Source of the DNA: Candidatus Petromonas tenebris | Lineage (GTDB): Bacteria > Bacillota > Clostridia > Peptostreptococcales > Caminicellaceae | Assembly (NCBI GenBank): GCA_014236755.1 | Contig: JACCKY010000003.1 | Location: 1-64,000, forward strand | Length of the DNA: 64,000 nucleotides | Direction of reading: 5' to 3' | Part shown: piece after piece, positions 2,176 through 37,812 of the stretch | Position numbering within the stretch: position 1 is the first letter of the stretch | Layout of the letters: every line of letters begins with the position of its first letter | Made by a program: the position numbers and the translations under genes | Notes under the pieces: model-generated | Databases searched by the model: none | What the model was told of the DNA's origin: nothing | Seen by the model: only the letters and a program-made list of their open reading frames with translations

Positions 2176-3349
2176 CTATTACTTCCTCCTTTCGATCAAA
2201 TTTTTCTATAAATTCATTCCAACTATTTAATGTTCTATTATATTCTTTTATTACTTTATTAAGCTGTTTATAGCTTATTTCAAGGGCTTTTGGCAGTATT
2301 AAAAACCTCTCATCATTTAGATATTTTGCCACAGCCTTTGCCCCTATCTTTATGTTCTCCATCTGATAACCCTTCACTTCTTCAATGTCTCTACCCATGA
2401 TCCAATTCAAGAATGGGTTTCTACCTATCCACCCCAGACAAGCATAGTAAAATCTATCCTTTATATCTGCAGTGCTCCTTATATCTGGAACTTCAGGGTA
2501 ATTACTATAAGTATCATGGAATATTTTTGTATCTATATCTATACACTTTTTATCTATTTCTTTAAATCTTAATCCTAAAAGTGTATCCTCACCCCTTGTT
2601 AAAATCGCCTCTCCGTTTACAGTATATACCGTTGAAAAAAATGGAGGCAAACTTCTAAATCCTTTAAGTTTTATAGCTACATTTCCACCTAATATCTTGT
2701 CCGTATCAAATACCCTTCGATTGTAATAATTGTCTAAATTTAAGCACTTATGTTTATTGCTTTCTAAAATATATCCATAAACTGCTTCCTTTTGCAGCCC
2801 TATCAATAGCTCTTTCATCCCATCAAATTTCATTGGCGGAATTATATAATATCCTGAATAATCACTTGTGGTAATAATCACATCTTCCCGTTTAAGATAT
2901 TCCAAGTGCCTTCCTATGAAGTCTATCTCCCTTTCCACTACCTCTCCTTCATGCTCAGTCAAAACTTTAGGATAAACATCGGTATCAATAAACACAAGTA
3001 CTTCAGAGCCTGTAAGCATTGCTTCAATAACTGCATAATTCCTATATATTCCATAAGGAACTAAACCATAGGTATCAAGTGTTGGTGAATTAAGAAGTGT
3101 ATTTATAGATTCTACAGAGATTCCCATATTCAGTAAGTCACATCTTCCTGAAATAAAACTGTTAATTTTAACTGGAAAAACCTTAGTTCTTTTTCTAAGT
3201 TTTTCTATCAGTTTAAAATCACAGTTGTGGGAATAAACGATTACTATACTATATATACTGTGGCCATATTTTGATGCATTGCCCAAAAACTGTTCAATTG
3301 GATCTAGGGTATTAAATTCTTTAGTTATAATTCCTAATGAAACCTTCAT
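2141..3349 (-). CDS. Putative GT-A-fold glycosyltransferase, first gene of the operon
   Basis: This 402-residue protein has a good ribosome site (GAGGAGG) seven bases before the ATG. I do not recognise a named family. The sequence EVLVFIDTDVYPKVL near residue 120 is a DxD-like motif at the end of a hydrophobic strand, as in GT-A glycosyltransferases. GEDTLLGLRF near residue 255 resembles the ED motif used for acceptor activation. No membrane segments or signal peptide are visible. It leads a three-gene operon with a GT4 and a family 2-like enzyme, overlapping the GT4 gene by 35 bases. This suggests that the three proteins assemble one glycan or compatible solute. The function is otherwise unknown. 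Confidence 0.65.
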   Translation of the reverse strand: MKVSLGIITKEFNTLDPIEQFLGNASKYGHSIYSIVIVYSHNCDFKLIEKLRKRTKVFPVKINSFISGRCDLLNMGISVESINTLLNSPTLDTYGLVPYGIYRNYAVIEAMLTGSEVLVFIDTDVYPKVLTEHEGEVVEREIDFIGRHLEYLKREDVIITTSDYSGYYIIPPMKFDGMKELLIGLQKEAVYGYILESNKHKCLNLDNYYNRRVFDTDKILGGNVAIKLKGFRSLPPFFSTVYTVNGEAILTRGEDTLLGLRFKEIDKKCIDIDTKIFHDTYSNYPEVPDIRSTADIKDRFYYACLGWIGRNPFLNWIMGRDIEEVKGYQMENIKIGAKAVAKYLNDERFLILPKALEISYKQLNKVIKEYNRTLNSWNEFIEKFDRKEEVIGENINDKSFSA

Positions 3350-3545: not shown

Positions 3546-4016
3546 ATGAGAGGTACAAGATTTATTGTTCAGTCATCTATAATAGCTACTATATATACAG
3601 TTTTGACCATTGCCTTTGCCCCTATAAGCTACGGGGAAATTCAGGTGAGAATATCCGAAGCATTGACGATTTTGCCCTACTTTACTCCTGCAGCAATTCC
3701 AGGACTTTTTGTAGGTTGTCTTATTGCAAATATGCTTAGTCCTGTTGGAGTATTTGATGTAATTTTCGGAAGTCTTGCTTCTTTAATTGCTGCATATATG
3801 TCATATAAAATGCCAAAAAAATGGCTTGTCCCTATACCCCCTATAATAGTAAATGCTATTGTTGTAGGGCTATTACTTAGATATGCATATAGCCTGCCTA
3901 TTCCTTTGGCACTATTAATGCTTTATGTAGCTATTGGTCAAATTATAGCCTGCTACGGCTTGGGATATCCTCTTTTAATAATATTAAATAGATATAAAAA
4001 CAAAATTTTCAAATAA
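3546..4016 (+). CDS. queT: QueT-family queuosine-precursor transporter (ECF S component)
   Basis: This 156-residue, very hydrophobic protein has five to six membrane segments. The conserved stretch YGEIQVRISEALTILPYFTP followed by GLFVGCLIANM is characteristic of QueT, the substrate-binding subunit that takes up queuine/preQ-type bases together with a shared ECF energy module. No energy-module genes are in this window, as expected for group II ECF systems. It is the only gene in its transcription unit; AAGAGGTG sits five bases before the ATG. It may supply a base for tRNA queuosine. Identification rests on motif recognition and typical length. Confidence 0.85.
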   Translation: MRGTRFIVQSSIIATIYTVLTIAFAPISYGEIQVRISEALTILPYFTPAAIPGLFVGCLIANMLSPVGVFDVIFGSLASLIAAYMSYKMPKKWLVPIPPIIVNAIVVGLLLRYAYSLPIPLALLMLYVAIGQIIACYGLGYPLLIILNRYKNKIFK

Positions 4017-4026
4017 AAATTTCTTT

Positions 4027-4182
4027 AAATTAGCCTCTTGTGCTAGTTACTCTAACAGTATAGTTTTAAATATCCTTCAATGTTTCCTCTGAAGCGACTT
4101 TGAAGAGCTGTTTTTACCTCTAAATCTTTTCTATATAAAACAGCTCTTCTACGGAGCCTGAAGAGGATTATTGAAGGATATC
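4027..4182. repeat. Hairpin repeat family A, copy 1
   Basis: This is an imperfect palindrome shared with copies near 36.4 and 37.5 kb. Its outer 12-bp stem pairs 4070-4081 with 4170-4181. It is followed by a GTT/TT internal loop, a TCCTCT/AGAGGA stem (4085-4090 with 4162-4167), an internal loop containing GA on both strands (4096-4097 and 4154-4155), and a perfect 13-bp stem (4102-4114 with 4137-4149) closing a variable loop. The left flank (from 4027) is shared with copy 3; the right flank beyond 4183 differs from the other copies. It lies between convergent genes (queT and a sensor kinase). Confidence 0.85.
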
Positions 4183-4186
4183 TATA

Positions 4187-4216
4187 TAGAATACCAGTTA
4201 CGGTATTCTATATTTT
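4187..4216 (+). terminator. Hairpin, possible queT terminator
   Basis: A nine-base perfect stem (TAGAATACC with GGTATTCTA) with a six-base loop is followed by TATATTTTAGG, a weak T-rich tail in the direction of queT. It directly follows repeat A copy 1. Confidence 0.35.
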
Positions 4217-4296: not shown

Positions 4297-5928
4297 TTAT
4301 CTGAAACTTAATGGAAATCTTACTATAAAGTGATTCCCCTCTTTATCTACCTTCAGTTCAATAGTTCCATTATTTTTACGAACCATCTTCTTAACTATAT
4401 AAAGCCCCAGGCCGTTTCCTTCCTGACCCTTCGTTGTAAATCCCTTTTTAAATATCTTATCTCTTATATCCTCAGGGATAAGAGGAACGTTATTAGTTAC
4501 CTCAAATACATAGTCATCTAATTCTTCATATATTTTAATTTTGAGTTTTTTATCCTCATCCTCTGAGTTTTCCAATGCGTACATTGCATTCTTAATCAGG
4601 TTTGAAAGTATTTTGGTAAGATCGTATACTTTTACAGGGAGGTTTTCCGAAAGTTTTATACAGTCTATCTCCACATCTATATTTTTTTCTCTTGCCTTAG
4701 ATATAGCTGTAAAGATAGTGGACTCAAGTTCTGCAATACCGATTTCATATTTGCTTCTGAGTACCATTCCTTCTTTTGCTACCATCTTCAAGTATTCAAG
4801 TGCTTTATCTGAATACTCCAGTTCAATAAGCCCCCGTATTATCTGTAGATGATTCATAAAATCATGCTTATACATTCTGAGTTTTTCATTCATTTCTTCA
4901 CTTAGCACGAGACGGTAATGGGCCATTTCTTTTTCAGTTACAACTCTTGAAAGAATAATGACTTCTATAACAATCCATAGCGTCAAAAATATACTTATAA
5001 ATGCAATAAGCCAGAAGCTTTTTTTAAGATTAATTTCAATAGTTTCAGTCAATTCCTTCTTGGGTACAATAGCTTTAAGATACCAACCCACAGTATTTAG
5101 CGGAGCTATTCCCACCAAAAACTGATTATTATTCATACTTATTTCTCTCATTTTATAAAATTTTTCACCTCTAACCAATAAGTCAAATAAGTCTTTAGAA
5201 ATTGTATAGTCAGATTGACTTAATGCAAGTTTTTTATTATCGTCATAAATATCTAGCCCTCCGGTAATTCCAAAGGATGCATCCCGATATAAAGCTTTAA
5301 AGCCTTCAATATTTATAAAAGTAAACAAATAACCTACATTTCCTTCTTCCCAGACCGGCCTTATCTTTTGAGCTAAAAAGAACAGTTTTTCTCCCATATG
5401 GGTGCTTTGAAATACAGGGCTAGCCGGTATATACCACCAAAATAAATTCTCTCTACTACCAGACATGGCCTTATATATATCACTTTTAATAAAATGGTCC
5501 ATATTTATAGTCAAGTCTTCACTTGATGAGATAACTATACCTTCTTCAGTAATACATAAAAATTGGTATATATATGGATTTTCTGTTTTCAGATTCTGAA
5601 ATTTTTCTTTAATGAAATGAAGTATCTTTTCCTGGGCATTATCAGGCAGACCTTGAAAATCTTGAAGGCCCTTTCTAATACCATTTTGACTAGCTATTTC
5701 ATATGCACCTTCCTCAATACCTGTAAGGGTTAAGTCTATAGACTGACTGGTTTTTATTAGAATTTGATTAACTGCCTTAATCTTTTCCTCTTTTACCACA
5801 TTTACAGTCTTCGTGTATACAAAGTACATATATAAAGCCATCGGTATATATATAAGTATTAAAAATAAAATCAGTACTCGCATACGAAGTACTTTTTTTC
5901 TACTGAATAAATCCAGGAGTCTATCCAA
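4297..5928 (-). CDS. Membrane sensor histidine kinase, Spo0B-type DHp (CitA/DcuS-like)
   Basis: This 543-residue sensor kinase has one membrane helix near residues 17-37, an extracellular region of about 265 residues that looks like a double-Cache ligand sensor, and a second helix near 305-327. The phospho-acceptor region YKHDFMNHLQIIRGLIELE is the Spo0B/CitA-type form, with the His near residue 356. The ATPase domain carries the N box (LSNLIKNAMYAL) and the G box (GNGLGLYIVKKM). Such kinases normally sense small acids and signal to a partner regulator, but no response regulator is adjacent, so it is an orphan here. The ligand is unknown. Repeat C copy 1 lies in its upstream region. Confidence 0.88.
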   Translation of the reverse strand: MDRLLDLFSRKKVLRMRVLILFLILIYIPMALYMYFVYTKTVNVVKEEKIKAVNQILIKTSQSIDLTLTGIEEGAYEIASQNGIRKGLQDFQGLPDNAQEKILHFIKEKFQNLKTENPYIYQFLCITEEGIVISSSEDLTINMDHFIKSDIYKAMSGSRENLFWWYIPASPVFQSTHMGEKLFFLAQKIRPVWEEGNVGYLFTFINIEGFKALYRDASFGITGGLDIYDDNKKLALSQSDYTISKDLFDLLVRGEKFYKMREISMNNNQFLVGIAPLNTVGWYLKAIVPKKELTETIEINLKKSFWLIAFISIFLTLWIVIEVIILSRVVTEKEMAHYRLVLSEEMNEKLRMYKHDFMNHLQIIRGLIELEYSDKALEYLKMVAKEGMVLRSKYEIGIAELESTIFTAISKAREKNIDVEIDCIKLSENLPVKVYDLTKILSNLIKNAMYALENSEDEDKKLKIKIYEELDDYVFEVTNNVPLIPEDIRDKIFKKGFTTKGQEGNGLGLYIVKKMVRKNNGTIELKVDKEGNHFIVRFPLSFR

Positions 5929-6021
5929 TGTATAACCACTCCATCTAACTTTTTATATAGCTTTCTGCAAAACTGTTATATCTATTTTACTAGATAATAT
6001 CCCTTATTTTCAAGAAAGAAA

Positions 6022-6218
6022 AAACAAAAGCGTCTTCGACGCATTTGTTGGTTCGTAGTTAGTAGTTCGTAGTTGGTAGCCCTGATTAGCTCTTAGTTCT
6101 TAGCTCTTGGCTCTTGGCAAATCCTAGTCGTTCTTTAGGGTCTTTGTTAGCCTTTTTAATATTTAACTGGGAGTAGTTTGCAATTTCTTGCAAAAATGTT
6201 TGAGTTCCTAACCAAAAA
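6022..6218. repeat. Dispersed repeat family C, copy 1
   Basis: This copy is nearly identical over its first 120 bases to a segment at 26733. It begins with a small hairpin (GCGTC TTC GACGC flanked by AACAAA and TTTGTT), then has quasi-repetitive TTCGTAGTT and TAGCTCTTAG units, and ends in a region with TTTGCAATTTCTTGCAAAAA. No reading frame spans it. It fills most of the 334-base gap between the kinase start and the holin-like gene; nothing else is apparent in that gap. Confidence 0.8.
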
Positions 6219-23647: not shown

Positions 23648-24724
23648 TTATCCTCCAATCTGTTCCAAAATAAGTTTTCCCATTTCTTTTGTCCCTACTA
23701 ACTTCATATCTTTACTCATTATATCTCCTGTACGGTAATTATTTTTCAATACTTCTGAGATTGCTTTCTCAATAGCAGCTGCTTCCTCTTCCAAGTCGAA
23801 GGAATATCTAAGCATCATAGCTGCTGATAGTATAGTGGCAATTGGATTTGCCTTATCCTGACCTGCTATATCTGGAGCAGAACCATGAATTGGTTCATAC
23901 ATTCCCTTATTGTCCTCTCCAAGGCTGGCTGAGGGAAGCATCCCAATAGACCCAGTAATCATACTGGCTTCATCGGATAAGATATCTCCAAACATATTGG
24001 TAGTTAATATCACATCAAACTGTCCTGGATCACGTACCAGCTGCATGGCAGCATTATCTACGTACATATGGTTTAAATACACATCAGGATAATCCTTAGC
24101 CACCTTTTCCACCACTGAACGCCATAATCTTGAACTTTCAAGTACATTGGCCTTATCTACACTTGTTACTCTACTATTTCTTTTTCTTGCTATTTCAAAG
24201 GCGGTCTTTGCTATTCTCTCTACTTCTACTTCGCTGTATTGCTTTACATCATAGGCTTCTTCACCCATTTTACCGTTTTTACGTCCCTTTTCACCAAAAT
24301 ATATGCCTCCTGTAAGCTCTCGAACTACGCAGATATCAATTCCGTCTCCTATTATCTCAGGCTTTAAGGGACAAGCATCTTTTAGTTCGTTGTACATAAT
24401 AGCAGGCCGAATATTGGCATATAATCCTAAAGCCTTCCTCAGTGTCAATAATGCCTTTTCTGGTCTCTTTTCACCAGGTAAATTATCCCATTTGGGACCT
24501 CCCAAGGCTCCCAATAATACCGCATCACTTTCTTTACAAACATCTAATGTCTCCTCCGGCAAAATCTCTCCCTGGGCATCGATAGCACAACCACCGGCTA
24601 AGACTTCTGTAAATGCAAATTTATGGTTGAAAATCTTGCCTACTTTTTCTAAAACTTGAATAGTTTCCATTATAACTTCCGGTCCTATTCCATCACCCGG
24701 AATTACTGCTATATTAAAATTCAC
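23648..24724 (-). CDS. leuB: 3-isopropylmalate dehydrogenase
   Basis: This 358-residue NAD-dependent oxidative decarboxylase makes the leucine precursor 2-oxoisocaproate. It starts [15 protein letters not shown], contains [15 protein letters not shown], the substrate Arg region GLYANIRPA, the Tyr/Lys catalytic sites ([13 protein letters not shown] and [14 protein letters not shown]) and the metal-binding [14 protein letters not shown]. The start is GTG with AAAGGAGG upstream. Hairpin repeat B copy 1 separates it from leuD. Confidence 0.97.
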
Positions 24725-24759
24725 TTTTATTTCCTCCTTTGTACTTTTAACATGTTACT

Positions 24760-24941
24760 ATAGATGAACAACTCTAAGATTCAATTTATATTACCCTAGG
24801 GATTTTGAGGTTTCCTTCTGAGTGATTTTGAGGTATTTGTTGCTACTTCTATCTTTTATTTGAAGAGGGCAAATCTTCACATGAACCAGAAGGATTCTCA
24901 AAATCCTAATAAATTTAACCTTAAACTTTGTTATCTATATG
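24760..24941. repeat. Hairpin repeat family B, copy 1 (inside the leu operon)
   Basis: This palindromic repeat is shared with 35549-35730. The central stem GATTTTGAG/CTCAAAATC and the TCCTTCTG/CAGAAGGA stem are intact, joined by the GTT/TT internal loop. The inner stem is weaker than in copy 2 (ATTTG/CAAAT). The outer arms, rich in A and T, also pair, and the right arm runs into the last codons of leuD. On the mRNA it would form a large hairpin between leuD and leuB. Confidence 0.85.
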
Positions 24942-25418
24942 TTTTATATAATTCACCAATCCTCCTGACGAAATAATTTTCTGCATAAATTCAGGAAGGG
25001 GCTCTGCCTGATAGGTTTGATTCTTAGTCAGATTTTTAATTGTTCCCTTTGTAAAGTCTACCTCTACTTCATCTCCCGCATCGATATTATCAGCTGCCTC
25101 ATCACACTCGAGAATAGGCAGACCAATATTGAATGAGTTCCTGTAAAATATTCTTGCAAATGTTTTGGCGATTACACAGGATATTCCCGATGCCTTAATT
25201 GCAATTGGTGCATGTTCTCTGGAAGAACCACATCCAAAATTTTTATGGGCTACAATTATGTCCCCATACCGTACCTTTTTAGCAAAACTGTCATCTATAT
25301 CCTCCATACAATGCTTTGCAAGTTCCTTTGGATCTGAGCTGTTTAAATATCTTGCTGGAATAATGACATCAGTATCCACATTGTCTCCGTATTTGAAAAC
25401 TCTTCCCCTTTTTTTCAT
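24921..25418 (-). CDS. leuD: 3-isopropylmalate dehydratase, small subunit
   Basis: This 165-residue swivel-domain subunit is of the archaeal/clostridial short type. It has [19 protein letters not shown] at the start, [18 protein letters not shown] (substrate-binding loop) near residue 57, and [17 protein letters not shown]. It works with LeuC on 2- to 3-isopropylmalate isomerisation. Its final codons, coding for [10 protein letters not shown], overlap the right arm of hairpin repeat B copy 1, so the C-terminus may have been rewritten by the insertion. It starts 13 bases after leuC. Confidence 0.96.
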
Positions 25419-26694: not shown

Positions 26695-26732
26695 GATATA
26701 TTTCTCCCCTTTCTATTTTCATATCCTTTAAG

Positions 26733-26965
26733 AACAAAGGCGTCTTCGATGCATTTGTTGGTTCGTAGTTAATAGTTCGTAGTTGGTAGCCCTAATTAGC
26801 TCTTAGTTCTTAGCTCTTGGCTCTTGGCAAATCCTAGTCGTTCTTTAGGGTCTTTCTTGCGGCCTGTCACCTTTTTGCCATGAGCGGTCAGCAGTTAGCT
26901 GTTAGCCTTTTTATTATATTAGCATCTGCAATTTTTGGCAAAAAACCTTTGAGCTCCTATACTAA
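26733..26965. repeat. Dispersed repeat family C, copy 2 (inside the leu operon)
   Basis: This copy matches copy 1 at 6022-6218 through the initial GCGTCTTCGATGC hairpin, the TTCGTAGTT units and CAAATCCTAGTCGTTCTTTAG. It then has an extra segment of roughly 50 bases (from CTTGCGGCCTG to CAGTTAGCT) and resumes similarity at GTTAGCCTTTTT, ending near TTTGAGCTCCTA. It lies between leuA and leuC, so it is transcribed with the operon. No coding frame is present. Confidence 0.8.
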
Positions 26966-34536: not shown

Positions 34537-34625
34537 CTTTTATAGAATCCGTTAACCCTTTCTACAATTTCTTCTGCGATTTCTCTACTTTTATTGATAT
34601 AAAATTTAATCACTACCTTTTATAG
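34507..34625. repeat. Short direct duplication spanning the reactivation-gene start
   Basis: A 39-base segment at 34507-34545 recurs at 34587-34625 with a single mismatch (ACC versus ACT within the start context), an 80-base offset. Both copies carry an AAAAGG ribosome site, a GTG start and the codons for IKFYINKS. The upstream copy gives a 27-codon reading frame (34613-34530) whose TGA overlaps the real GTG start, so it could act as a coupled leader peptide, or be a duplication scar. Its outer edge overlaps the last codon of metF. Confidence 0.8.
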
Positions 34626-35522
34626 GCATGATACTTTTTCGTTAGTTAATACACCTCTTATACTGGAAATACTACTAAGAATCCTTCTAGTCGTTTTCGG
34701 GTTATTCATTGTATATATATGAACTCCATCTACTCCCCAAGATAAAAGATCTATTATTTGTTCTACTGCATAAGCAATCCCTGCCTCTCTTAAAGCCTCA
34801 GGACTGTGTTCGTATTTTTCAATTATTCTACTAAACTTTTTCGGCAGGGTACAACCGGTTAAAGGAAGAATCTTCTCTATCTGCTTTGTATTTAAAACAG
34901 GTAAAATCCCTGCTAAAATAGGTACATTTATGCCAACTTTTTCAGCATTTTCTTTAAATCTATAAAAAATCTCATTGTCAAAAAAGAGCTGAGTTATAAG
35001 GAAATCTGCTCCAGCATCCACCTTTTCCTTTAAATTAATCAAATCCTGACTTAAACTTTCACATTCTGGATGCTTTTCAGGATAACAGGCAGCTCCAATA
35101 GAAAAATCATAGCTACTTTTGACGTGGAAAATTAGATCCCTAGCATATTTATAATGGTTAGGGCCTCCTAAATCTGCACCTTCGTACTGTGGATAGTCGC
35201 CCCTAAGGGCAAGTATGTTTTCAACACCATTTTTTTTAAGCACACTTAAAATATTGTCGATTTCCTCCTTGCTTGAAGTTAAACAGGTAAGGTGGGCTAA
35301 AGCTGATAGATCATACTTATTCTGTATATAAGAAGCTATCTCCACTGTTGTGTCTTTCGTGCTGCCTCCAGCACCATATGTAACACTTATAAAGTCAGGC
35401 CTTAAATCATTTAGCCCATCTATTGTATTGTATATTGTATCCACAGGATAATTCCTCTTAGGTGGAAATATCTCAAAAGAAATCAAAGGTTTCTTTTGAA
35501 CAAACTTATTTTTTATTGACAT
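34620..35522 (-). CDS. metF: Methylenetetrahydrofolate reductase
   Basis: This 300-residue flavin-dependent TIM barrel supplies methyltetrahydrofolate to MetH. It starts with PLISFEIFPPKRNYPVDTIY (active-site Glu), then FISVTYGAGGSTKD, ILALRGDYPQ (folate-binding Asp), AACYPEKHPE and FLITQLFFDNEIF, all canonical. It is the first gene of the metF/reactivator/metH unit, preceded by hairpin repeat B copy 2 and a SAM-I riboswitch. No Fe-S MetV partner is adjacent. Confidence 0.96.
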   Translation of the reverse strand: MSIKNKFVQKKPLISFEIFPPKRNYPVDTIYNTIDGLNDLRPDFISVTYGAGGSTKDTTVEIASYIQNKYDLSALAHLTCLTSSKEEIDNILSVLKKNGVENILALRGDYPQYEGADLGGPNHYKYARDLIFHVKSSYDFSIGAACYPEKHPECESLSQDLINLKEKVDAGADFLITQLFFDNEIFYRFKENAEKVGINVPILAGILPVLNTKQIEKILPLTGCTLPKKFSRIIEKYEHSPEALREAGIAYAVEQIIDLLSWGVDGVHIYTMNNPKTTRRILSSISSIRGVLTNEKVSCL

Positions 35523-35548
35523 TTAATTCTCCCCCTTATTCTATGAGT

Positions 35549-35730
35549 TGCTATAAATAAACAACTTTAAAATTTAATTTGTATTACTCTAGGGATTTTG
35601 AGGTTTCCTTCTGAGTGATTTTGAAGCATTTGTTGCTACTACTATTTTTTTAAATAAGCAACAAATCTTCACATGAACCAGAAGGATTCTCAAAATCCCA
35701 GTAATTAAACCTTTAGCTTTATTATCTACA
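35549..35730. repeat. Hairpin repeat family B, copy 2 (between riboswitch and metF)
   Basis: Best-preserved copy of family B. The outer stem of 11 perfect pairs (35592-35602 with 35689-35699) is followed by a GTT/TT internal loop, an eight-pair stem (35606-35613 with 35679-35686), an internal loop with GA on both strands (35617-35618 and 35675-35676), then GAAG/CTTC and a ten-pair stem (35628-35637 with 35657-35666). AT-rich outer arms extend the pairing. It lies downstream of the SAM-I terminator and ends about 25 bases before the metF ribosome site. Confidence 0.88.
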
Positions 35731-35756
35731 CTTTAATATTTTCTTTTCTATAAACT

Positions 35757-35905
35757 AAAAACTCCCTCGATAGTGAAGGAGTTTTGATAGCACAAATCTC
35801 TCATCTATCGGTAAAATATACCGCTGGACTTAGCACCAATATACATTTTAAGTACTGGTTGCCGGGCTTCATAGGGCCAGGTCCCTCCGCCACTCTTGAT
35901 AAGAG
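35757..35905 (-). promoter_or_regulatory. SAM-I riboswitch with terminator, controls metF operon
   Basis: The minus strand starts CTCTTATCAAGAG (35905-35893), then GAGGGACCTGGCCC, ATGAAGCCCGGCAACC, a TTGGTGCTAAGTCC segment and GATGAGAG. It ends in a terminator stem AAAACTCC...GGAGTTTT with TTTTTAG. The layout is the same as the riboswitch ahead of metY, so both methionine units should fall when SAM is high. Confidence 0.95.
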
Positions 35906-35957
35906 TACATATTCATATTTAGTTGTGAATTTTTATTATTTTTAACTATTAATAAAG

Positions 35958-35986
35958 ATATTACACGAAGTCATAAAATATGTCAA
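35958..35986 (-). promoter_or_regulatory. Sigma-A-type promoter of the metF riboswitch
   Basis: On the minus strand TTGACA (35986-35981) and TAATAT (35963-35958) are separated by 17 bases. It lies about 50 bases ahead of the SAM-I aptamer. Confidence 0.8.
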
Positions 35987-36007
35987 GTAATTTTTAAATT
36001 TTATTAA

Positions 36008-36358
36008 TTACTTTTTATTTTTAATCTTCATTTCCGCAAAGTATTCAGTATCCCTTAATGAAATATAGTGTTTAGTATAATCTACTTCAAAATTTACAAC
36101 AGATGACTGAAGATCTATATTTCTAAGCAAATGAACTGTACATACGTTATTGTTTTGAGAAGTGCAAAACCTCAATATCACATTTCTTACCATGGGAAAT
36201 TGCAGCCTTGAGTTTAAGTAATCTGGTGAATTATTTAAATATAAATTTACTGTTCTATTGCCAATGGGCAAAAACAGATCTATATCTTCTCCTTCTTCCC
36301 TTACAGTTCTTATATCAAAATCGCTGTCAACTATAAAACTGTTCTTTTTATATATCAT
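36008..36358 (-). CDS. Hypothetical protein
   Basis: This 116-residue soluble protein is not one I recognise. It has no signal peptide or membrane segment. The composition and alternation (DIDLFLPIGNRTVNLYLNNS, FEVDYTKHYISL) suggest mostly beta structure. The single cysteine pair is not arranged as a metal site. It has a plausible ATG and AGGTGGTG upstream, and lies alone between the metF promoter and repeat A copy 2. Two cysteines and an LRFCTSQNNN segment are the only distinctive points. Confidence 0.55.
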   Translation of the reverse strand: MIYKKNSFIVDSDFDIRTVREEGEDIDLFLPIGNRTVNLYLNNSPDYLNSRLQFPMVRNVILRFCTSQNNNVCTVHLLRNIDLQSSVVNFEVDYTKHYISLRDTEYFAEMKIKNKK

Positions 36359-36390
36359 ATGTATAACACCACCTATTTAAGTTAATTTAA

Positions 36391-36535
36391 TAGTATAGCT
36401 TTAAATATCCTTCAATGTTTCCTCTGAAGCGACTTTGAAGAGCTGTTTTTACCTCTAAATTTTTTATAAAACAGCTCTTCTACGGAGCCTGAAGAGGATT
36501 ATTGAAGGATATCTATAAGGAACTAGCGGAGTAAG
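36391..36535. repeat. Hairpin repeat family A, copy 2
   Basis: The core is nearly identical to copy 1: outer stem 36405-36416 with 36501-36512, the GTT/TT loop, TCCTCT/AGAGGA, the GA/GA loop, and the 13-bp inner stem ending AGCTGTTTT/AAAACAGCT with a shorter loop. The right flank AACTAGCG is shared with copy 3, while the left flank differs. It occupies most of the gap between the hypothetical gene and the iron-sulfur protein gene. Confidence 0.85.
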
Positions 36536-36540
36536 TTAAG

Positions 36541-37287
36541 TTAGAAACTACTGAAAGCACAGGGTCCAACTGTACATTTTCCACAGACATCGGCAAGACC
36601 TAAATCTGTGAATCTTTTATCAATTTTTAGTAAATGCTCATAACATTTGAACTTATCGAATGACTGGGCTTGTAATGCTCCTGTTGGGCAGTTTTTTACA
36701 CAAGCCAAACATTTTTCCTCTCTAAAATACTTACAGAAGTTAGTCTTTGGTCTTGGAGTGGGAGATATCTCAGCTGAAATGATGATGCTGCCAAATCGTC
36801 CAGCACAACCTGAAGATGTAATTAACATGTGATTTACACCAAATGTCCCAAGTCCAGCTATATAAGCAGCACTTCTATGAGACCAACTTGCTGTTAAGTC
36901 TACTTCATTAAAGTTATGGGTAGCCTTTTCATTGAATGATTTTATTCCATATAGTGATAACTCTTTCATTAGTTCTTTACAAATATATTCTATTAATGCA
37001 TTTGTTTCTATATAGGCAACCGCCCATTCTCTTGATACTTCATCATCTATTCTATTTGATATTACTACATCTTGAGCAAAAGGAATAAAAAAAGATATTA
37101 CTGTTTTTGCTTCCGGTAGCAGCTCTTTTGGATGTGCATGATGCTTTCCTATAATTTCTTTTATTTGTGTGAACAATGAGTCGTGAGCTGAAGCAAAACC
37201 AACTAAAGGTTCTCGATATTTAGTCACAGTATTTGCTTCTTCTACCAACAACTTGATTTTTTTCTCTATTTTTCTAGCCAGATGCAT
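36541..37287 (-). CDS. QueG-like 4Fe-4S protein (epoxyqueuosine reductase family)
   Basis: This 248-residue protein has an N-terminal region as in QueG relatives (KELLPEAKTVISFFIPFAQD; GTFGVNHMLITSSGCAGRFG). Its C-terminal ferredoxin-like domain carries CLACVKNCPTGAL and CGKCTVGPCAFSS, giving cysteines for one or two 4Fe-4S clusters. True QueG reduces epoxyqueuosine in tRNA and is longer (about 310-380 residues). This short paralogue, common in anaerobes, has an unproven substrate. Hairpin repeats of family A flank it on both sides. Confidence 0.8.
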   Translation of the reverse strand: MHLARKIEKKIKLLVEEANTVTKYREPLVGFASAHDSLFTQIKEIIGKHHAHPKELLPEAKTVISFFIPFAQDVVISNRIDDEVSREWAVAYIETNALIEYICKELMKELSLYGIKSFNEKATHNFNEVDLTASWSHRSAAYIAGLGTFGVNHMLITSSGCAGRFGSIIISAEISPTPRPKTNFCKYFREEKCLACVKNCPTGALQAQSFDKFKCYEHLLKIDKRFTDLGLADVCGKCTVGPCAFSSF

Positions 37288-37371
37288 TCTATCCCCCCAA
37301 TAAGTGTAAAATACAACTTTTTGTACATATTCTATCTTCTAACATTCCCTCTAACTCTTTCTTTAATCTTC

Positions 37372-37416
37372 TTACTATAGATATCCAACTCTAAAATTTA
37401 TTATCTCTAATTAAAA
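37372..37416. repeat. Fragment of hairpin repeat family B
   Basis: The sequence from TTACTATAGAT through CAACTCTAA matches the left outer arm of family B copy 1 (starting near 24765). The central stems are absent. It sits immediately left of repeat A copy 3. Confidence 0.5.
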
Positions 37417-37446
37417 TTATACTTCATTTTTTCATAAATTTCTAAT

Positions 37447-37632
37447 AATTTAACCTCTTGTGCTAGTTGCTCTCTAACAGTATAGCTTTAAATATCCTTC
37501 AATGTTTCCTCTGAAGCGACTTTGAAGAGCTGTTTTTGCCTCTAAATCTTTTCTATTAAAACAGCTCTTCTACGGAGCCTGAAGAGGATTATTGAAGGAT
37601 ATCTATAAGGAACTAGCGAGGCAAGTTAAATT
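37447..37632. repeat. Hairpin repeat family A, copy 3 (most complete)
   Basis: The element is about 186 bases with paired outer arms: AATTTAACC...GCTAGTT at the left and AACTAGCG...GTTAAATT at the right, enclosing the same core as copies 1 and 2. The outer 12-bp stem begins at 37492. The hairpin loop differs slightly (GCCTCTAAATCTTTTCTAT). It lies in the 525-base gap between the QueG-like gene and the carbamoylase remnant. Confidence 0.85.
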
Positions 37633-37670
37633 AATTAAGCACAAACTCAAATTTCAAAATAAAAAATCAC

Positions 37671-37704
37671 CTATCGCATTAAAACGACAAGTGATTTTAT
37701 TTTT
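37671..37704. terminator. Hairpin terminator
   Basis: AAAATCAC and GTGATTTT pair, with an inner TCG/CGA pairing. On the minus strand the stem is followed by TTTTTTATTTT. It is probably the end of the M20 amidohydrolase unit, including the remnant at 37813. Confidence 0.65.
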
Positions 37705-37812
37705 ATAATCTATAATTCATAATAATAAATTACCTCGACACACATACCCTATCATTTCAAAAATAAAAATAAAATCAAATTGAAAGGCTAAAAAGTTTCT
37801 ATTTATTTCATT

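Follow-up and report, generated by a model that had tools for sequence, protein, structure and literature searches.

Five long hairpins lie in the window, by which we mean the whole 64,000-nt stretch analysed (Candidatus Petromonas tenebris, contig JACCKY010000003.1, positions 1–64,000). Read directly from the window sequence, they stand where an earlier note on this DNA had placed them, three in a family A and two in a family B, and they are real and far from chance: against 200 dinucleotide shuffles the folds reach z-scores of −8.7, −8.4 and −6.3 for the A copies and −5.8 and −9.2 for the B copies. Each hairpin is only the middle part of a larger element with inverted ends of its own.

4033–4184, + strand: family A copy 1, an IS982-type MITE with its right end lost; hairpin core 4070–4181
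3546–4016, + strand, and 4297–5928, − strand: convergent neighbours of A copy 1, a QueT-transporter gene and a sensor-kinase-type gene
24759–24939, + strand: family B copy 1, an IS630-type MITE with TATAGAT..ATCTATA ends; core 24799–24906; antisense between the next two genes
24921–25418, − strand: Aconitase_C gene
23648–24724, − strand: isocitrate/isopropylmalate-dehydrogenase gene
35552–35730, + strand: family B copy 2; core 35592–35699; antisense between the next two features
35798–35905, − strand: SAM riboswitch
34620–35522, − strand: MTHFR gene
35785–35758, − strand: terminator-like site of the SAM riboswitch, beside B copy 2
36386–36531, + strand: family A copy 2, with its left IS982-type end lost; core 36405–36512
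36378–36385 and 36532–36539: identical 8 bases, TAAGTTAA, flanking A copy 2 (read directly)
37453–37626, + strand: family A copy 3, complete with IS982-type ends; core 37492–37602; inner TATAG..CTATA unit
37446–37452 and 37627–37633: TAATTTA and TAAATTA, flanking A copy 3, 6 of 7 bases alike

Two of the three A copies in the window have lost one IS982-type end (4033–4184 the right, 36386–36531 the left), and the gene surroundings of B copy 1 are probably a leu operon. All the parts that the earlier note had listed are present: an outer stem, GTT opposite TT (the G being able to form a G-U pair), a stem of TCCTCT or TCCTTCTG, GA opposite GA, and an inner stem opening with GAAG/CTTC. Its description of the inner stem as paired in each copy fails for the B copy near 24760, because this copy has GAGG in place of GAAG and an imperfect inner stem (right arm AGAGGGCAAAT). 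The T-A pair ascribed to B beside the GA loop occurs in 22 of 42 aligned B copies; 13 of the 42 have C-G there.

The window holds further repeats. A 28-nt palindrome (TATAGAATACC..GGTATTCTATA, 4185–4212) directly adjoins the truncated right side of A copy 1, and could be either a terminator or a very small element with TATAG ends. A different, 129-nt repeat with heptad-like units (GTTCGTAGTTAGTAGTTCG, CTCTTAGTTCTTAGCTCTTGG) is found at 6020–6148 and 26730–26858 (95% identical), and similar sequence adjoins other elements in the genome. On the minus strand, 53358–53496 matches the Rfam model group-II-D1D4-3 (51.2 bits, gathering score 32), which suggests a piece of a group II intron.

Two MITE-like families with unrelated ends

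Pattern searches of the 2.94-Mb genome (up to 3 mismatches) find 84 family A cores and 47 family B cores, with no match to reversed-pattern controls searched in the same way. Complete elements measure mostly about 171–176 bp in A and about 180–190 bp in B, the hairpin core being the inner 105–121 bp. Among copies with enough flank, none lies inside a frame of more than 150 aa (A, 0 of 78; B, 0 of 45). The elements are thus short, multicopy and intergenic, with imperfect terminal inverted repeats and a target-site duplication of 7 bp in A, B being consistent with TA. A and B are two high-copy, gene-less, MITE-like families with two unrelated end types. MITEs are usually classified by one parental IS.

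Complete A copies start ACCTCTTGTGCTAGTT and finish AACTAGCGAGGCAAGT or variants of these. The A end TTAACCTCTTGTGCTAGTT has 18 of 19 bases in common with TTAACCTCATGTGCTAGTT, which adjoins an IS982 transposase gene (243.8 bits, cut-off 130) in a relative from the same bacterial family (G001), this IS982 element being represented by one end alone on its contig. The earlier note had suggested looking for target-site duplications, and the A flanks carry them: 7-bp repeats are exact in 23 of 54 end-complete copies (partner shuffles mean 6.7, maximum 15, 5,000 trials), and 42 of the 54 are alike in at least 6 of 7 positions (shuffles mean 26.4, maximum 35, 5,000 trials), a statistic weakened by the fixed target motif, whose consensus is TAANTTA. 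The 54 were kept from 87 A cores after dropping those that were without both recognisable ends, outside 165–180 bp or not A-initial. An A copy nested in a B copy (L011) has TAAAGTA on both flanks. In the draft genome itself (120 contigs) no IS982 gene exceeds the cut-off of 130; two weak matches reach 54.6 and 24.2 bits. Judged by its ends, family A is an IS982-derived MITE.

Family B spans TATAGAT to ATCTATA. IS630 elements duplicate TA targets, and none of 45 B copies has a flank repeat outside TATAG..CTATA, as expected for a TA-duplicating element. An IS630 relic in the same genome (L213, contig C115; end TATAGATATACGCCCTTAAAACTTAAT) begins with the same 27 bases as a B copy (L060); its transposase match covers model positions 204–295 of NF033545 with one stop (74.9 bits). 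A second relic (L082/L208, contig C51), with an end similar to that of B, scores 92.9 bits for a 124-aa frame and 103.7 bits over model positions 153–299 of NF033545, and a third match lies at a contig edge (C116, NF033545 positions 4–93, 44.9 bits). These three partial matches, a fragment, a stop-bearing frame and a contig-edge fragment, are what the draft assembly of 120 contigs holds, with no complete IS630 gene. By its ends, and in keeping with a TA target, family B is to be read as an IS630-derived MITE.

Several precedents exist in other lineages. RUP, the repeat unit of pneumococcus, is described as a 107-bp IS630-type MITE mobilised by IS630-Spn1, with TA-containing targets, and its reported insertions hit IS elements from more than six families (PMC2229807). 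Compared by description, family B is likewise a short, high-copy, intergenic MITE with IS630-type ends and a fit to TA-containing targets; it differs in its size of about 180–190 bp, in its long hairpin core and in that this core also occurs with IS982-type ends. A MITE of Cardinium (cOegib) is described as having inverted repeats very similar to those of an IS982-family element (PMC9769881), as in family A by description; A differs in that its draft genome shows no IS982 gene above the cut-off and in sharing its core with IS630-type MITEs. The bcr1–bcr18 repeats of the Bacillus cereus group are described as intergenic, often in UTRs and operons, bcr1–bcr3 as MITE-like, and some as having conserved folds (PMC3446304); by description A and B are also intergenic and MITE-like, the bcr repeats belonging to another lineage. 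ERIC and NEMIS/Correia are MITE-type repeats found in mRNA, with an orientation-dependent effect of ERIC and a proposed RNase III effect of NEMIS (PMC2229807). IS630-type MITEs (RUP), IS982-type MITEs (Cardinium) and MITE-like mRNA repeats (bcr, ERIC, NEMIS) are therefore already known. A 2024 review of prokaryotic MITEs uses none of the terms IS982, IS630, nested, chimer- or orientation in its main text (PMC10969869). In the literature covered, mostly titles and abstract starts with subscription papers mostly outside its scope, we found no report from bacteria in which a single core occurs with two kinds of IS ends.

The shared core and a proposed change of ends

Despite their unrelated ends, the two families carry the same middle. 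Local alignment of the A and B consensus cores scores 46, against a maximum of 32 for 1,000 random hairpins that keep the fold and the pair set (0 of 1,000 as high). The core extends to Maledivibacter halophilus: B scores 63 against its core (null maximum 30) and A 34 (null maximum 28), the Maledivibacter core scores 84 against G004 (null maximum 31) and 51 against G001 (29), and B scores 31 against G001 (30), each with 0 of 1,000. Weaker scores are obtained for A and G001 (25; 2 of 1,000), B and G004 (24; 11 of 1,000) and A and G004 (21; 33 of 1,000). The earlier note had seen in A and B one structural plan with changed helices and mostly kept loops. That plan stands; the notion of separate families converging on it gives way to sequence homology of the cores, and the shared plan is common descent of one hairpin core, a long palindrome.

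A covariance model built from 39 cores (A, B and Maledivibacter), the search of related genomes that the earlier note had proposed, matched 5 of 393 genomes of the order: the genome itself, G001, Maledivibacter halophilus (G002), G004 and, weakly, one genome of another family (G100, E 8.6e-5). Maledivibacter halophilus M1 is classified in Caminicellaceae, Peptostreptococcales (NCBI). Of the five genomes listed for the bacterial family, four have the core and one, G003, gave no match, and in a sample of the class the genome itself was the sole match among 391. These searches scored the 10 best first-look candidates per genome with stricter filters, so that absence elsewhere is provisional. The G100 match (L108, 37.4 bits) is weak and lies between TATAGATAAACAAG and TTCATCTATA, and so is possibly another IS630-ended MITE; outside the bacterial family, such IS630-type ends may flank hairpins other than this core. 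An exact core pattern gave 11 matches on 10 stretches of a genome contig collection, all in Maledivibacter halophilus M1 (the window's genome being perhaps outside the collection). Among viral contigs it gave one of 19 kb, with copies at 855–946 and 3134–3225, one base off the two copies on Maledivibacter contig NZ_FUZT01000010. Plasmid records searched with B and phage records searched with A returned no match. In the Maledivibacter consensus (L096 and others) the apical loop repeats the left-arm TCCTTTTGA exactly (5 of 2,000 shuffles have a copy as long), and such a copy is not notable in the other four groups.

Maledivibacter and G004 cores have IS630-type ends. G001 has IS982-ended cores together with an IS630-ended core element (TATAGGGAACCAAC..GTTGGTTACCTATA; L206, 117–305) within an IS982 transposase gene, splitting its NF033520 match into positions 78–115 (C367:1–117) and 10–62 (C367:349–507); this recalls the reported insertion of RUP into IS elements, as far as the descriptions allow. 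The two kinds of G001 core, which have unrelated ends, align over 121 columns (score 133). Family A contains a 127-bp TATAG..CTATA unit inside its IS982-type ends. In the tree (midpoint-rooted, about 110 positions), the IS630-ended G001 copy groups with the IS982-ended G001 cores (support 97), and A groups with all G001 cores (100). To the left of the core at one G001 locus (L107), a small TATAGAGAATCC..GGAATCTCTATA insert, another TATAG-ended unit, splits the IS982-type left end.

In the simplest history the core first belonged to an IS630-type MITE, which used TA sites within IS982 elements as targets; the composite would then have shrunk to an IS982-ended MITE, which spread by itself. The nested unit is possibly still visible in A as TATAGCTTTAAATATCC..GGATATCTATA inside the IS982-type ends, and the G001 copy within the IS982 transposase gene suggests the route by which the ends changed. 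Capture by recombination would do as well as nesting and erosion, because in the IS982-ended G001 element, which lacks IS630 ends, homology stops at the core edges. The tree may equally fit a single capture by IS982 ends that was later reversed, or two separate captures.

We therefore consider it very likely that A and B are MITE-like families mobilised by different DDE transposases and carrying the same inherited hairpin core. Both would be non-autonomous, moved in trans, and after insertion the copies would act mostly as neutral DNA, with orientation as the exception. Against this stand the absence from the draft assembly of an IS982 gene over the cut-off and of a complete IS630 gene, and an orientation bias that the MITE reading alone leaves unexplained.

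Helices, loops and changes among copies

The covariation set comprises the same 39 cores (14 of 30 A loci, 18 of 30 B loci and 7 of 9 Maledivibacter copies). The earlier note had taken changed helices with kept loops as covariation, and the outcome is divided. Of all cells 93.5% are paired, whereas slid structures never exceed 57.6%; the covariation score of 0.352 compares with a control maximum of 0.131. Three of five measures (paired cells, double-change cells and score) lie above all 500 shuffles. Pairs changed on both sides (11 against a shuffle mean of 9.4; 79 of 500 shuffles as high) and further pair types (15 against a shuffle mean of 22.1) do not, and these two are the measures least inflated by relatedness.

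The loops are constant in the main. A, B and Maledivibacter all have GTT/TT and GA/GA although their inner and outer helices differ, and GA opposite GA is also present in G001. Most loops thus persist between genera, but the tandem GA is replaced in G004 by a paired GCTCC/GGAGC in four of five copies (the fifth is also without the GA loop), and G001 has lost the GTT/TT loop.

Within the genome, copies break pairs freely. Over the whole-element fold, the 73 A copies kept from 83 alignments show 341 one-sided pair-breaking changes, 139 leaving G-U, 14 compensated and 13 non-pairing double changes; the figures for the 42 B copies kept from 48 alignments are 168, 146, 22 and 9. Unique changes in the core show no strand-specific G-U preference (A, 21 for the plus and 21 for the minus strand; B, 20 and 17). 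Palindromes can be corrected arm to arm, and mutation followed by such correction in a long palindrome could also yield compensated helices, with no need for selection on RNA. Mean divergence from the family majority is 2–4% in A stems and 1–6% in B stems, with 14% in the inner right arm of B and about 21–22% in its apical loop, the most variable part. Core positions of A vary by 4.6%, against 6–13% at its ends; in B the left core arm varies by 4.5%, the right by 7.3% and the ends by 6–12%. The A core is thus somewhat less variable than its ends, which is unexpected under plain neutrality, and the B picture is mixed. The elements match no Rfam family at its gathering score, and a permissive scan covering B copy 2 and A copies 2 and 3 gave sub-threshold miRNA-type matches alone.

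Orientation relative to genes and its readings

Copies between codirectional genes (simple ORF caller) mostly oppose them: 39 of 55 in A (p = 0.003), 31 of 37 in B (p = 4e-5) and 70 of 92 together (p = 5e-7). The relatives give 8 of 11 antisense in Maledivibacter, 5 of 5 in G004 and 0 of 1 in G001. The total tested was 83:25, without the one countable opposite copy of G001 (83:26 with it), and neighbouring copies in these counts are not fully independent. Since both families are mostly antisense, mRNA would mostly carry the reverse complement, in which the tandem GA becomes UC opposite UC. The heptad repeats, as an orientation control, split 4 to 1, too few to use.

A promoter or terminator within the elements was considered as the source of the bias over the stretch 35400–37750 and, on that stretch, set aside. 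Promoter-like sites there are not above shuffle level (11 against a mean of 11.7); terminator-like sites exceed it (5 against 0.8), the five including two weak sites of 5 pairs within A, on the minus strand, and were not taken as the explanation.

Replication direction might instead set the orientation, if ends or hairpins favoured one template strand. Most genes lie on the contig-majority strand, which confounds the two effects, and even between convergent or divergent genes 19 of 30 copies oppose the majority gene strand. Where the neighbouring genes run against the majority, the copies divide 4 to 3, too few to decide, and the same bias would be required of two unrelated transposases. We regard this reading as rather doubtful.

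Selection on transcripts is the natural reading of the bias, because A and B insert by different routes yet share the core: the favoured orientation would most simply reflect some effect of the core on transcripts that is selected against, or for. ERIC and NEMIS/Correia, described from unrelated hosts, could serve as a model. In its strongest form, the core would be a cis-element that is under selection and able to spread, a mobile cassette of RNA (or DNA) carried by two unrelated end-systems and kept by the host, most internal loops persisting across genera as helices turn over; it would act on host mRNAs as the reverse complement, for example in mRNA processing or stability, so that copies persist in one orientation. 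The bias in both families and in Maledivibacter and G004 (G001 apart) is consistent with this, as are the retention of GAGGTTTCCTTYTGAGCGATTTT and ACATGAGCCARAAGGATTCTC between genera whose inner and outer helices have changed and the placing of copies between genes of a probable operon and downstream of the SAM riboswitch. The freely broken pairs, the even G-U counts of the two strands, the paired replacement of the GA loop in G004 and the lack of an Rfam match argue against it. A function for the core is possible; the full cassette we hold to be unlikely.

One of the two candidates in the earlier note is an undescribed structured RNA on the strand that it read, whose tandem GA pairs would make tertiary contacts or bind protein. 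That GA opposite GA is kept in A, B, Maledivibacter and G001, that the plus strand folds slightly better in three of four consensus cores, and that covariation score and paired cells exceed controls would suit it. This strand, however, is antisense in the 70 of 92 codirectional contexts, so the tandem GA would usually not be on the mRNA strand; the GA loop is absent from G004, G-U changes favour neither strand, two of five covariation measures fail to beat shuffles, and A and B, being homologous, are not independent samples. Such an RNA is very improbable.

The note's transposition alternative was a sensible one, the elements being mobile, but recognition of single-stranded hairpins by an IS200/IS605- or REP-type HUH transposase, which palindromic, high-copy, intergenic elements might suggest, is hardly credible: IS200/IS605- and REP-type elements are not known to make a target duplication, whereas A has 7-bp duplications, and the IS982-type ends of A and IS630-type ends of B both match DDE-type elements in the same or a related genome.

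On the preferred reading of two MITE-like families with one inherited core, what is unusual is the middle that both have in common and the direction it prefers with respect to genes, rather than a proven new RNA. One palindromic core appears with IS630-type and IS982-type ends in two genera, and the insertion inside an IS982 transposase gene illustrates a possible start of such an exchange. Constant loops with changed helices are, in mobile palindromes, no necessary sign of a selected RNA. If the orientation bias does reflect selection on transcripts, one genome would offer more than 100 natural insertions in which to test the effects of a mobile hairpin on neighbouring mRNAs.
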